Assembly (NCBI RefSeq): GCF_000447795.1
Contig: NZ_AUNI01000020.1
Span: 62,001-126,000, forward strand
Reading direction: 5' to 3'
DNA length: 64,000 nt
Source: Bacteriovorax sp. Seq25_V
GTDB lineage: Bacteria > Bdellovibrionota > Bacteriovoracia > Bacteriovoracales > Bacteriovoracaceae
The first letter of the stretch is position 1. Every line of letters begins with the position of its first letter. A model generated the notes under the pieces. That model was not told where the DNA came from and made no database searches. It was given only the letters and a program-made list of their open reading frames with translations. The position numbers and the translations under genes are program-made. Of the stretch, positions 14,000 through 20,163 are shown one piece after another.

Positions 14000-14815
14000 T
14001 TATTTTTGACACTTCGGACAGTAGTAAGTTCCTCGTGTTGCAAGTGTGATCTTTTTTACATCTGTCATTTTACACATTCCACATTGCTTTTGGTAGAAAA
14101 CAACGAGATTTTTTACACCTTCTCCCTTGTCTCCATAAGCGTCCTGATAGCCCCCCGAAAATGTTGTCCCTCCAGTGGTGATGGAGTCATCAAGCACTAG
14201 GTGAGTGGCATCAACGATGCGTTCAAGGTCTTTGGTGGAGAGTGTTTTCATCTTTCGCGTGGGCCTAATTCCTGCACGTGCGCAGATTTCTGAGGCCATA
14301 TAATTTCCAATGCCACTGAAATAATTTTGCTCGAGCATAAAGGGCTTTATGACTTTTTCTGGTCGAAGTTTTTTAAGAGTGAGGAGGTAGTCAAGATTAA
14401 AGGCCTCGGTCGAGACATCGGGACCTAAGCGCGTCAACCACTGGGCCTCGCCTTCTTCAGTGAGAAAGTACATCACACCAAAACGGCGTGGATCAACATA
14501 ACCCAAGTAAAGTGGTCCCTTTGAATTCTTTCCAATGAAAGTAACGTGGGTGTGCTTGACGTCAATTGGAGTAGTACTAATACGCCATGAACCCGACATG
14601 CCAAGTCCTGAGATGATGCGACGATTATCATCAAGGAAGAAGCGCAAAACTTTTCCATATCTCTCGACTTTAAGTATTTTAAATTTTTCTATTTCAAATT
14701 CTGGGTCTTTAACGATGGACTTGCTGACTTTTGAAAATATCACTTCCTCGACATCCATCGGGATGACTTTGGAGAGTTGGGACTTGATGGTTTCGACTTC
14801 TGGAAGCTCTGGAAT
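14000..14815 (-). CDS. mutM: Formamidopyrimidine-DNA glycosylase, apparent AUU start
   Basis: A 271-residue Fpg/MutM base-excision repair enzyme that removes 8-oxoguanine and nicks the DNA. The family's catalytic N-terminus (Pro2-Glu3, in PELPEVET) is fully present but is preceded by ATT at 14815-14813, not ATG. An in-frame TAA lies two codons upstream, so no other upstream start is possible; AAGGGG lies six bases before the ATT. The first ATG (14758) would remove the active site. The segment YVDPRRFG, the helix-two-turn-helix YFSGIGNYMASEIC and the C-terminal zinc finger (C-x2-C-x16-C-x2-C, ending YYCPKCQK) are intact. Full length with AUU matches the family (about 270). Confidence 0.88.
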   Translation of the reverse strand: MPELPEVETIKSQLSKVIPMDVEEVIFSKVSKSIVKDPEFEIEKFKILKVERYGKVLRFFLDDNRRIISGLGMSGSWRISTTPIDVKHTHVTFIGKNSKGPLYLGYVDPRRFGVMYFLTEEGEAQWLTRLGPDVSTEAFNLDYLLTLKKLRPEKVIKPFMLEQNYFSGIGNYMASEICARAGIRPTRKMKTLSTKDLERIVDATHLVLDDSITTGGTTFSGGYQDAYGDKGEGVKNLVVFYQKQCGMCKMTDVKKITLATRGTYYCPKCQK

Positions 14816-14852
14816 AGCTTACCCCTTGATTAATTTAGTGTTTAGACGATTT

Positions 14853-14881
14853 ATCTTAGCTTGAAATATTTTATTTCTCAA
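14853..14881 (-). promoter_or_regulatory. Sigma-70-like promoter of fpg
   Basis: Minus-strand TTGAGA (14881-14876), 17 bases, TAAGAT (14858-14853). Transcription would begin near 14846, giving a leader of about 30 bases that contains the AAGGGG ribosome site and the ATT codon. This agrees with initiation at 14815. Confidence 0.4.
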
Positions 14882-15322
14882 ATCGTTTTTAATGAAAGGA
14901 TTACAACAGAACTAAGAGAACAGAACAAAAAAATGAGAAGCAAAGTATTGGCACCCGCCGTATCAGCAACAGAGTTTTTTATAAATGATTTTTAATTGTT
15001 ATGTGTTTATATTCCCTCAGCTTTAATGAGTATTTTGTTGAGATTTGAAATGAATCAGAGGGTGTTAAAAAATAAGACTCTATGAAAGTGTAATTCTTTC
15101 TTAAAACAGATTGTCCTAAGATATTGAATAAATTTAGATAAATAATTAATTTTTTCAAAAATTTTTCCGATAATTACATTGAAATGTAAAATGGCACTTT
15201 TAGCATCGAGTCGGGCATTTTACCTTACAAGGTAAAGTGGTATTTTCGAAAACCACCAACAACAAATTTCTTGTTCCTACTCATAAAGTTTGCACTAACA
15301 AAAAGCCTTGTGTACATAATTT

Positions 15323-15339
15323 CAGTACCTTAGGTACTG
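15323..15339. repeat. 17-base perfect inverted repeat upstream of the surface lipoprotein gene
   Basis: CAGTACCT T AGGTACTG, eight-base arms around one base, about 100 bases before the start codon. It fits a dimeric repressor or activator site as well as a small RNA hairpin; no T-run follows. Confidence 0.45.
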
Positions 15340-15436
15340 TGTTGCAATAATTCTTAGATACTTTAAAGTTTTATCTTACAGTAGATATATAGCCGATAAG
15401 TAATAGTCTAACTTTTGATTTTATTAAGAGGTTTTT

Positions 15437-18400
15437 TTGTTGAACTTGTTAAAGATTTTAAAATTGTCGTTACTACTAGCTTTTTTAATTGGATGTACTC
15501 CGTCTGCAGGTGTAAATAAAGTTTCAAGGGGAGATAGCGGGACGACTTTGACTCCAGATGGCTTAAGAGATCCAAAACTTCCGGATACACCTCTTCCTGA
15601 AGATAAAAATAAGCCTCCAAAAATTGATCAGATTGCAGACGCATTCGTTTATCTTGGAGATAGTTTTACAGCAGATGCAAATGATGGTGGAGATGATAAG
15701 GACATTGATAATGATGTCTTAGTTTACTCTTGTTTTGTCGATCAGAATATCGATGGTAATGTTTCAAAACCAGCTAAGAAATGTCGTGAAGAGGGAATTT
15801 CTTTTAATGCCCAAAATGGTGTTCTTTCATGGGTACCAAATACGAAAGGTACTTTTGAGATAGAAATTATCGCATCAGATAAAGAGCTTCAAGATGGAGA
15901 AATTTTTGTTTTGTCTGTAATTGAAAGAGATTCTCCTCCGCCAGCTATTAATAATCCTCCAAATTTAGAACCTGTGCCTACGCAATTAGTTTATATTGGG
16001 GACACTTTAAAAATTGATATTGATAATGTTGGAACAGGGGACGTCGATATCGATGGAGATCGTTTATGGTTCGGTTGTCTCTATGATGAAGAAGTAGATG
16101 GATATGTAGAAGTACATAAGAATACAAAGAGATGGTGTAAAGACATTGAAGGTGTTAGCGTAGATACAGCAACTGGTTTAATACGTTGGTCACCAGTAGC
16201 TGGTCAAGAAGGTGAGTTTGAATTTGTTGCTTACGTAACTGATGGTCTCGATCGTCAAAGTGATCAGAAATTTGATAAGGAAATATTTAAAATAAGAGTG
16301 CTACCAAAGATATCTAACAAGTCACCGAAATTGGATTCTATTACAAATAAAATTATTAAAGTTGGTGAAGTTTTAAACTTAGATTTTAATGATGGTGGTA
16401 ACGATACTGATATTGATGGAGATCCTCTTTATTATAGTTGTGTTTATGATAAGACAGTTGATGGTATCGTAAAAGATAGTGGCGCAGGGGTGAAGTGGTG
16501 TGGAGCACTAGGCGGTCCTTTAAATACATCAACAGGTCAGATGACTTGGATGCCTACTGAAGAACAGGTAGGGACTTATGAATTTATGGCTCGTGCATCC
16601 GATTGGAGACAGGGGAAGACTGATTATCTAATTGATCGAAAAATCTTTAAAGTAACAATTGTTAGTGAAAACATCAATAACCCTCCTGTAGTTGACCCGA
16701 TATCAGATCAGACTTTAAAAGTTGGTCAGACTTATGAATTCAAAATTACAGATGGTGGAGATTATAAAGACGTAGATGGAGATGATCTTTGGACAGGCTG
16801 TTTCTTTGATCAAGAAGTTGATGGAAGTGTGGTGATTCATGATGCTCAGACTAGAAAATGGTGTAATGAGTTAGGAGTTAAAACAGATAGTTTACGTCCA
16901 GGTGTATTTATTTGGGAAGTTAAGGAAGAGCATATAGGTAAGTTTGAATTTGTTTTTCATGTAACGGATGGACCAACAAGAAAAACGAAACAAAAGAATA
17001 CACAAGAGTACGTAGTATTTACTGTTGAAAAAGGATCAGTAAATAATCCCCCGAAAATAGATCCAGTTGAAAATAGAACGATAAAAGAAGGAGAAACATT
17101 ATCTCTTGATTTTAACGACGGTGGAGATGATAAAGATAGTGATGGTACGGGACTAGTATATACTTGTAAAGTAAACGGATCTAGCTGTCCTAATTTTTCA
17201 ACTTCAAGAGGGATGTTGAGTTTTGTGCCATCTCAAGTTGGAATTTATAACTTTGTTATATCAGCAAGTGATACCGTATTAACTGATTCAGTTTCATTTA
17301 TTCTTACTGTTCAGGACAAAGACGGAGGAGATCCTCCTGTTGCAGATGATTTTAGGTTAGATCCAATTTTAGACAAGTATACTGTTGTGAAAGGTCGAAA
17401 TCATACAGTTGTAGTTCAAGTTGGTGGTTCATATAAGTATGAAGGACAATGGTTAAATTATTCTTGTACGTATGACCGTGTTGTTGATGGAAGTGTTTCA
17501 AGTGGTCAGAATTGTCAATTATTACCAACAGGTCTTCTGATGCTTTCTAGTCTTCTAACGGATTATGGTGCCTATGAGATTAAAGTAACTGCATCAGTTA
17601 ATGGTAAATCAGCTTCGAAAGTATTTGTGATTAATTCTGTTCGAGAAGAAGAGGCCGCTCTAATTTTTAAATGGAAGTCAAATTCGCAAGTAGGTTTTGC
17701 AACGAGATTTTTTATAGGTAATGATAGTGATGCCAGAAAAATGAACTTCTTTGTAGATTGGGGCGATGGAACAATTACTCAAAACTCTAATTTACATACA
17801 TATTCGGAAACTAATAAAGAATATACAGTTAAAGTATGGGGAACTTTGACAAGTATGAATTTTTGTACAGATAGAACAGGGATGAGAACGAATGAACCAC
17901 CTCCACACTATGTGACAAAGATTTTGCAAATTGGAGATTTAGATTACTCAAAAATACCTGGGTTTATAAATTGCCCTAATCTCTACTCAGTTAACTTGTC
18001 TAAGGCAAACACTCTGAATGTAACAAACATGGACAATGCATTTGGACAATGGGGTAGTGATTCTTCACGAATAATTAATGAACAAGAACTCATCGGACTT
18101 GAAAATATAGATACTTCTAAAGTTACTTCAATGGCAGGGATGTTCAATAATGGAAATTTGCTGATGACGACTCTCGATTTAAATCACTTTAACACAAGTC
18201 GAGTAATTAACATGGCGGGTATGTTTAGGGAGTTGAGCTTCTACGTTTATCCAGCTGGACCAAATCCGAATCAGCAATGGTGTCTCAATGGATTAAATTC
18301 CATTATGTGTGAAGGGAAAGGTGTTCAAGAAATCAAGTTTGATCGTTGGAATACTTCTAATGTGAAGAATATGACAGGTATGTTTTATGGTGCACGAATG

Positions 18401-19645
18401 ATAAAAGGATTAGATATTTCTCATTTTAATACAGATAAATTGCAAAATTTGGATCCGATTGTTGAAGAGTTTGGTAAGAAACATGGTCAGACTTTTACAA
18501 TTGATCCGAATAAATGTGGATCTAATTCACCTAATCATCCTGTTTCAGGTGTTAGAGATATGTTTAGGCAAATGTCTTCTCTTGAGCAGTTAAATGTTAA
18601 AAATCTTAATACCTCAAACCTTTACTGTCTCGATGGTACATTTGCAGAACTTCCAAAGTTAAAAGAATTGGACTTAAGTCATTTGCAGACCCAAGAGATT
18701 AGAAGTATGAGTAATACTTTCTATATGACGCCATTATCACCAAAAGGGTTGGATAATTGGCAAACACCTAAGTTACAAGTTCTAAATGGGACATTTATGG
18801 GACGTGGAGAACAGTCCTTTAGGTTTCCAAGTTGGGATACATCAAAAGTTGAAAGTATTATTAATCTATTCTCTACTTCAAAATCTATTCATATCGATAT
18901 GTCTTCATTTGATTCTAGTAGTTTAGTAAGTATTAAAGGTCTATGTAATGGTTGTTGGTATTTAAAGAATTTTAAATTCTCTCTAACGGACTCAAGTCAA
19001 TTGCTTGAAGTTGCGGGATTATTTAATGATGCCTATCGTTTACAAGAAGTTGATCTATCAAGTTTTAATATAAATTTTAAAGAGAAAAAAGAGCAATGCG
19101 AGAAAGTCTCTCGCGCATCTGAGTATGAGAGATGGTGTGAGATATTTTCAAAAAAAGATGCTTATCAAGCAAATGATCCTAATACCAAATACACAGACGA
19201 GTACCTGAGAATTTGGTGGTATGAGTTAACTATATATGGAAAACTTGGAGATTATGGAAGCAATTTAGGAAAAAACTATTCACTTCAAAAAGTTCGTCTT
19301 CCATCCGGATACAATTTTGATTGGACTCGTCAGTGGTATGATAATACGAACGAATTAATGAAAGAAAGGTTTAGAGCTACTTATGTTGGGCTTTCTATTT
19401 TAAGAATTCCATTCATACTTGAAATTGATACAGCTGGTAATATGCATCTTGCTTGTCCTGGTGAGGAATTTTTACAAGTAAACAATGAGATTGGTCGCTA
19501 TGTAGGACAAGATTGTCTAACGCTAGATGATTGGAAAGATCATGTGAAAATCTATGCAAATTTTGAGAATGAAAATAAAAGGCAAGAAATGGCCGGATAT
19601 TTAGCTGGGAAAGTTCTTCGATTTGATGATTATGATTCTGAATAG
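15437..19645 (+). CDS. Giant surface lipoprotein: Ig-like repeats plus BspA/DUF285 repeats
   Basis: A 1,402-residue lipoprotein beginning at TTG (15437, or 15440), with AAGAGG upstream. The lipobox is LIGC near residue 20. Six copies of a ~100-residue Ig/cadherin-like module follow (about residues 55-735), each opening with NNPP-like and carrying GGDDKD-xDGD-xLxYSC and WC-LG-TG-xW-P motifs; Asp-rich turns suggest calcium binding. Then comes a PKD-like segment (FVDWGDGTIT, about 775) and a BspA-type DUF285 leucine-rich region (about 850-1220) with repeated (F/W)NTS-V-NM--MF. Such proteins are surface adhesins. A predator could use it to bind prey; that is inference. It stands alone. Confidence 0.85.
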   Translation: MLNLLKILKLSLLLAFLIGCTPSAGVNKVSRGDSGTTLTPDGLRDPKLPDTPLPEDKNKPPKIDQIADAFVYLGDSFTADANDGGDDKDIDNDVLVYSCFVDQNIDGNVSKPAKKCREEGISFNAQNGVLSWVPNTKGTFEIEIIASDKELQDGEIFVLSVIERDSPPPAINNPPNLEPVPTQLVYIGDTLKIDIDNVGTGDVDIDGDRLWFGCLYDEEVDGYVEVHKNTKRWCKDIEGVSVDTATGLIRWSPVAGQEGEFEFVAYVTDGLDRQSDQKFDKEIFKIRVLPKISNKSPKLDSITNKIIKVGEVLNLDFNDGGNDTDIDGDPLYYSCVYDKTVDGIVKDSGAGVKWCGALGGPLNTSTGQMTWMPTEEQVGTYEFMARASDWRQGKTDYLIDRKIFKVTIVSENINNPPVVDPISDQTLKVGQTYEFKITDGGDYKDVDGDDLWTGCFFDQEVDGSVVIHDAQTRKWCNELGVKTDSLRPGVFIWEVKEEHIGKFEFVFHVTDGPTRKTKQKNTQEYVVFTVEKGSVNNPPKIDPVENRTIKEGETLSLDFNDGGDDKDSDGTGLVYTCKVNGSSCPNFSTSRGMLSFVPSQVGIYNFVISASDTVLTDSVSFILTVQDKDGGDPPVADDFRLDPILDKYTVVKGRNHTVVVQVGGSYKYEGQWLNYSCTYDRVVDGSVSSGQNCQLLPTGLLMLSSLLTDYGAYEIKVTASVNGKSASKVFVINSVREEEAALIFKWKSNSQVGFATRFFIGNDSDARKMNFFVDWGDGTITQNSNLHTYSETNKEYTVKVWGTLTSMNFCTDRTGMRTNEPPPHYVTKILQIGDLDYSKIPGFINCPNLYSVNLSKANTLNVTNMDNAFGQWGSDSSRIINEQELIGLENIDTSKVTSMAGMFNNGNLLMTTLDLNHFNTSRVINMAGMFRELSFYVYPAGPNPNQQWCLNGLNSIMCEGKGVQEIKFDRWNTSNVKNMTGMFYGARMIKGLDISHFNTDKLQNLDPIVEEFGKKHGQTFTIDPNKCGSNSPNHPVSGVRDMFRQMSSLEQLNVKNLNTSNLYCLDGTFAELPKLKELDLSHLQTQEIRSMSNTFYMTPLSPKGLDNWQTPKLQVLNGTFMGRGEQSFRFPSWDTSKVESIINLFSTSKSIHIDMSSFDSSSLVSIKGLCNGCWYLKNFKFSLTDSSQLLEVAGLFNDAYRLQEVDLSSFNINFKEKKEQCEKVSRASEYERWCEIFSKKDAYQANDPNTKYTDEYLRIWWYELTIYGKLGDYGSNLGKNYSLQKVRLPSGYNFDWTRQWYDNTNELMKERFRATYVGLSILRIPFILEIDTAGNMHLACPGEEFLQVNNEIGRYVGQDCLTLDDWKDHVKIYANFENENKRQEMAGYLAGKVLRFDDYDSE
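15606..17640 (+). repeat. Six tandem Ig/cadherin-like modules inside the lipoprotein
   Basis: Modules start near 15606, 15950, 16315, 16675, 17040 and 17345 and encode the recurring pattern N(N/K)(P/S)P, then VG/LG, then DGG-D-DxDGD and YSC. The fifth lacks the usual WC insert and the sixth is diverged. They are similar at the protein level, less so in DNA, so the duplication is not recent. Confidence 0.7.
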
Positions 19646-19692
19646 AGTGACTCCGCTCTTGCAGACGCCTTCGAGAAAATGTTAGGAGAATA

Positions 19693-19717
19693 GAAATAGA
19701 GACTAATTCTCTATTTC
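19693..19717. terminator. Hairpin after the lipoprotein gene
   Basis: A perfect ten-base stem GAAATAGAGA/TCTCTATTTC with a five-base loop, 47 bases after the lipoprotein stop. The following T-run is poor on both strands, so a terminator role is likely but not certain. It overlaps the end of a doubtful minus-strand frame. Confidence 0.5.
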
Positions 19718-19855
19718 ATTCCAATTGTAGTTACTAACAACTCCAAGAAAATCGTCTTTTCGACGGGCCATGTATTCAACTGTAAAGCCATGTTGGGCTA
19801 ATGCTAAAATAGAAAGAATAGTTCTCCCTTTAAATAGATCATTTAATAAACTCAT
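19703..19855 (-). CDS. Doubtful small CDS or remnant, unknown
   Basis: A 50-residue frame starting MSLLNDLFKGRTILSILALA, with AAGGA seven bases before its ATG. The same frame is open upstream to a GTG at 20038 (111 residues), and the part between (HRQYACTNPSSNNSSLSYHP) also looks protein-like, while the first ~20 residues do not. It could therefore be the tail of a decayed longer gene. No family recognised and no neighbours on this strand nearby. Confidence 0.35.
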   Translation of the reverse strand: MSLLNDLFKGRTILSILALAQHGFTVEYMARRKDDFLGVVSNYNWNEIEN

Positions 19856-20163
19856 TTTTCCATCCTTTGTTACAAGATAATTTCTTTGAAATTTATCAGG
19901 ATGATAGGAGAGGGATGAATTGTTACTACTTGGATTAGTACAGGCATATTGCCTATGCTCACCATACTCACCTTTTTCATGAAATACCGTGAAATTGAAT
20001 GAAATATAGTGAAAATCAAAAAGTACGAAGAACTTCACTATTGCCGCTAACCGGTCGAATTTGATGAGGATTATTTAATGTTGCTCTTGATGTCGGGTAG
20101 TTCGAGCATTGACTATATGAGTAATAAAGTTTAAATTATAACTTCAACACCAAGGAGGTTCTC

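Follow-up and report, generated by a model that had tools for sequence, protein, structure and literature searches.

Among the genes known to start at AUU is pcnB of E. coli. The repression of non-NTG starts by IF3 has been established for infC and for sigR of Streptomyces (PMC5472188). A second kind of described system is represented by the dusA-targeting islands, tyrosine-recombinase elements that target a housekeeping gene at its 5' end and replace this end with their own sequence (PMC4482086). The fpg (mutM) gene of Bacteriovorax sp. Seq25_V, which lies in the window analysed here (the whole stretch of 64,000 nucleotides), would by its start codon belong to the first kind, the IF3-discriminated non-NTG starts, and its surroundings in related genomes resemble the second.

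At the start of fpg, the minus strand of the window reads ATC AAGGGG TAA GCT ATT CCA GAG CTT CCA GAA GTC GAA ACC (Table 1). A first-pass annotation had described ATT as the first codon, an intact PELPEVE stretch, a TAA two codons upstream and AAGGGG six bases before the start, all of which we confirmed on the sequence. Read from AUU, the protein begins with IPELPEVET, i.e. proline directly follows the start codon as in the N-terminal PELPE of Fpg/MutM proteins, and no stop interrupts the frame of 271 aa before position 14000. The product matches the Pfam domains Fapy_DNA_glyco (N-terminal domain, 2e-17) and H2TH (1e-15), with a C-terminal zinc finger just under the curated cut-off (E=7e-4). 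It is encoded by the single fpg of the genome (3.45 Mb, Bacteriovoracaceae) and over its full length is 67-74% identical to the fpg of the closest relatives. Within the frame, NTG first occurs as the ATG at 14758 (codon 20); a start at this ATG would remove PELPE and with it, as had already been pointed out, the catalytic proline. The chemistry of Fpg requires this proline at position 2, and since the TAA two codons upstream closes the frame, ATT is the one usable start. Between codons 2 and 19, the gene of this genome (G000) differs by 10 synonymous and 2 non-synonymous changes from that of the related genome G003, and by 5 synonymous and 2 non-synonymous changes from that of G015. The protein is kept while the bases differ, which indicates coding constraint on the stretch that precedes the first ATG. 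Rfam matched no RNA element at the fpg start, and a promoter scan at fpg stayed at chance level. A hairpin at the start, with AUU in its loop, was rejected as it is weak and no better than in shuffled sequences (z=0.81).

Table 1 Features of the fpg region in the window (positions of the window; strand as given).
Feature	Position	Strand	Basis or remark
fpg (mutM) CDS, 271 codons from AUU to stop	14000..14815	-	open frame; Pfam Fpg domains
fpg codons 2-7, counterpart of the attachment core	14796..14812	-	family consensus CCCGAACTACCCGAAGT; diverged here: CCAGAGCTTCCAGAAGT
AUU start codon	14813..14815	-	sole codon that makes the catalytic Pro the second residue; 16 family genomes have AUH here
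In-frame TAA	14819..14821	-	direct sequence reading; rules out any start further upstream
Shine-Dalgarno site AAGGGG	14822..14827	-	direct reading; 6 nt gap to ATT
Candidate inserted segment, from displaced to present fpg start	14816..20092	.	inferred; bounded by both sites
Predicted lipoprotein, 1402 aa, Ig-like domains and four DUF285 stretches	15437..19645	+	Pfam
Probable displaced former fpg start ATGCTCGAACTACCCGA	20093..20109	-	one mismatch to the family consensus

In the following, AUH denotes the start codons ATT, ATC and ATA. A search of 129 Bacteriovoracaceae genomes for ATH followed by PELPEV codons yielded 16 true fpg genes starting with ATT or ATC. No in-frame NTG lies between the last stop and ATH in 13 of the 16; in the other three an upstream start is possible, but the proline would then fall inside the chain. 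A parallel NTG search matched 88 genomes, some of them solely via displaced fpg fragments, and the AUH share of family fpg is roughly 16/100. Aligned across the relatives, the fpg start is not always ATG: G015, the closest relative by fpg, starts with ATC, and 14 others start with ATT or ATC. The ATT is thus neither a simple sequencing error nor a strain-specific change, the two trivial causes named in the first-pass annotation. In the family, AUH fpg genes have a stronger predicted Shine-Dalgarno (SD) pairing to the 16S tail (mean -6.8 kcal/mol) than those with AUG (-4.1; p=0.0003), values that assume the usual 16S tail and come from related, non-independent genomes; such compensation is expected if AUH starts are used. 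The proposal that fpg starts at AUU is supported by the TAA, by the constraint on codons 2-19 and by AUH in 16 family genomes, and on the strength of this comparison AUU is almost certainly the working start. In a maximum-likelihood tree of 63 Fpg proteins (all AUH loci and part of the NTG loci), which is a gene tree and may differ from the species tree, the AUH label changes 13 times, with at least 11 changes forced by well-supported branches.

As a control we chose glmS, whose catalytic Cys likewise fixes its start codon. It begins with ATG in 71/71 family starts found, against AUH in 16/100 fpg (p=2e-4). Reciprocal-best genes from 800 kb of this genome and 1.2 Mb of G015 were then inspected for starts other than NTG. 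Just fpg and infC lack an NTG start among 307 testable genes of this genome, and four do among 308 of G015, namely fpg, infC, an Mpo1-like gene (ATA) and an EamA-like gene (ATT). With 2/307 genes here and two further of 308 in G015, a lineage-wide relaxed initiation was ruled out as the main cause. AUH starts in other genes of the family exist but are rare. The likely AUH starts of the Mpo1-like and EamA-like genes lie at about 632621 and 633073 of G015:C1, and the Mpo1-like gene has ATG in this genome; in G003 (C3, near 525200) the start of an rlmN-like gene appears to be ATA. Read by hand, infC of this genome has an ATT start behind GGAGG, as E. coli infC does. The first-pass annotation had suggested that fpg may be kept at low or IF3-dependent expression. 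IF3 of this lineage turned out to be ordinary, and together with the AUU and strong SD of infC this makes an IF3-linked weak initiation of fpg plausible. From what is known of the behaviour of IF3, low and IF3-dependent expression of Fpg seems moderately probable.

In the family, the 5' end of fpg is also conspicuous for its neighbours. A tyrosine recombinase (Pfam Phage_integrase) adjoins fpg in 33/63 family loci, and a small helix-turn-helix protein precedes the recombinase in two inspected loci. The NTG search returned extra copies of the fpg start that match to about codon 7 and then diverge. At the fpg loci we counted 11 displaced starts (9 distinct), all of them upstream in gene orientation, and at the same loci none upstream in the opposite orientation and none downstream on either strand. 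In G135, G151 and G125 the displaced copy has ATG where the present gene has ATT, while in G134 and G048 both starts are NTG; in all of these, a comparison of displaced with present starts indicates that fpg takes its new 5' part from the element end. These findings are most simply read as an attachment site at the fpg 5' end, where an insertion moves the old ribosome-binding site (RBS) and start upstream and donates those of the element, as in the dusA islands (PMC4482086). The comparison makes it very probable that fpg is a recombination target in this family, a site where elements would replace RBS and start codon, which goes beyond what the first-pass annotation had proposed.

Integrases adjoin 8/16 AUH and 25/47 NTG loci, so AUH shows no enrichment beside them. 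For lack of this enrichment we dropped the elements as a general cause of AUH and restrict the claim to elements swapping fpg starts, without favouring AUH. Among the integrase-bearing loci, TAGGT lies within 14 bases of the start in 8/8 AUH and 1/25 NTG genes; this motif was chosen after inspection and the relatives are not independent, and TAGGT as the end of an AUH-type element is a lead only. Stacked displaced fpg starts, 1.3 to 14 kb apart and with varied cargo between them, were seen upstream of fpg at L275, L276, L277 and L278 and at G015:C1:665081-677704, which suggests that fpg is a hot spot of insertion in Bacteriovoracaceae. In G015, some 3.5 kb downstream of fpg, lies a second C-terminal fpg fragment (C1:659168-659296; 43 aa, 72% identical), left by an earlier duplication or replacement.

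Displaced partial copies of the codon 2-7 stretch lie upstream of the fpg of relatives, and a probable counterpart is found in the window. In the 800 kb of this genome that were searched, the site at 20109 is the sole match when one mismatch is allowed, and it lies upstream of fpg in the orientation of fpg. In 2.4 Mb of G000, G003 and G015, the 17-mer NTG-CCCGAACTACCCGA has four matches with at most one mismatch, where 0.04 are expected; each of them, three in G015 and one in the window (20109), is upstream of fpg and oriented like it. G015 and this genome share a beta-lactamase-like gene but have different genes between it and fpg. The candidate segment has a single large gene, which is divergent from fpg and encodes the predicted 1402-aa lipoprotein (Pfam DUF285 8e-30, He_PIG 1e-20, Big_9 8e-7). 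No integrase was detected within 1.5 kb of fpg in this genome. With no integrase left beside fpg, it is the one remnant site that points to a hand-over of AUU by an inserted element in this genome, which we regard as somewhat likelier than not on this sequence evidence.

The observation of an AUU start in fpg proved right and more general than claimed, as AUH fpg recurs across phyla. An ATH pattern scan of GTDB genomes gave at least 60 true AUH fpg genes among at least 120 matches listed, and at least 40 of these fpg genes have no in-frame NTG upstream. The lineages among the matches listed include Trueperaceae, Gammaproteobacteria, Caulobacterales, Acetobacteraceae, Planctomycetota and others, and the isolates Pacificimonas flava and Algimonas arctica are among them. 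In Trueperaceae, fpg starts with ATC in 32/36 and glmS with ATG in 22/22 cases. The bases just before the fpg ATC of Trueperaceae (L061, L063 and others) are conserved as TACGA(A/G)GGGA; this stretch may be where an overlapping gene ends. An even sample of Pseudomonadota gave 280 genomes with a match; among the about 150 of these that were listed, every fpg starts with NTG except that of the centre genome, and AUH fpg is thus concentrated in certain lineages. In several outside groups the fpg start is at most a few bases away from where its neighbour ends, e.g. a polA-like or grpE-like frame, neighbours that were named from their C-terminal ends. AUH fpg genes also occur in other phyla in operon settings without evidence of elements.

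We propose that the initiator tRNA reads the AUU of fpg, helped by the good SD site, and that fMet would be removed since Pro follows, leaving the catalytic proline at the N-terminus. As IF3 would disfavour this AUU, the amount of Fpg should be low and sensitive to IF3. In the family, tyrosine-recombinase elements very probably use the first codons of fpg as their attachment site, so that each insertion would displace the old upstream region, RBS and start and give fpg those of the element end. The AUU would then have arrived with a mobile segment, and the old ATG would be the remnant at 20109. As a whole, i.e. AUU translation, an element-delivered start and IF3-sensitive low Fpg, we consider this explanation likely. 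Against it speak the missing integrase and the single, imperfect remnant in this genome, the divergence of the fpg core itself from the consensus, the lack of an AUH excess beside integrases, and the AUH fpg of other phyla without evidence of elements. The last two points favour a rival reading in which a gene needed only in small amounts lost its AUG by ordinary point mutation; AUU would then be a true start, and elements and IF3 would be irrelevant here. Such a mutation would also fit the position of AUH fpg directly after grpE- or polA-like neighbours in those phyla and the few other family genes with AUH starts. However, Belinky et al. counted one AUG-to-AUU switch among 61,358 ancestral AUG starts (PMC5622118), yet at least 11 changes are seen in family fpg; the displaced ATG copies show an exchange of starts by recombination in relatives, and one such copy lies upstream here. 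We therefore judge a point mutation unlikely, though still a serious competitor.

Two other readings deny that AUU is a start. The sequence comes from one assembly, and an error could have turned a real G, and thus an ATG start, into ATT. This has a negligible probability, as 16 family genomes have AUH at this codon, among them the closest relative with ATC, glmS is never affected, and SD sites are stronger in AUH genes. That fpg has decayed, or yields a shortened protein from the ATG at codon 20, the sole canonical start in frame, is very improbable as well: such a protein would lose the catalytic proline with the rest of PELPE, constraint acts on codons 2-19, the SD site lies at the right distance from ATT, the remaining frame is intact, and relatives with an AUH start have retained the same N-terminus.

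With translation from AUU, fpg would be a further gene with recurrent non-NUG starts besides infC and pcnB, visible because the catalytic proline fixes the start. Gene finders that accept ATG, GTG and TTG only would trim about 19 residues including the active-site proline. Start codons may also change in jumps through recombination at the 5' end instead of base by base, and a link between IF3 and DNA repair becomes directly testable. More speculatively, and rather improbably, one group of fpg-docking elements with a stereotyped end (TTAGGT near AUU/AUC) might replace the host AUG, in which case a mobile element would determine the level of 8-oxoguanine repair in its host by way of an IF3-sensitive start codon. 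A limited literature search found no report of integrases at mutM, and as far as we searched both the recurrence of AUH in fpg and the exchange of starts by docking elements are apparently undescribed.

In comparison with the known systems, fpg has in common with infC and pcnB of E. coli an AUU behind a good SD site, a kind of start that IF3 disfavours. Unlike infC, fpg encodes a repair enzyme outside the IF3 loop, and its type of start varies from genome to genome. Like sigR of Streptomyces, which starts at GTC (PMC5472188), fpg is a stress-related gene with a non-NTG start that is missed by gene finders. However, the codon of sigR is not AUU and is conserved within Streptomyces, whereas that of fpg switches often, and the effect of IF3 was demonstrated for sigR while for fpg it is expected from the start codon. 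A recombinase at the junction, as in the dusA islands, is present at 33/63 family loci and was not found in this genome. The fpg elements resemble the dusA islands in the repeated cores of the same orientation, the outer of which is the displaced gene start; this likeness is one of docking pattern. They differ from the dusA islands in their target, fpg of Bacteriovoracaceae, and in the exchanged piece, which includes the RBS and the start codon, sometimes AUU or AUC.
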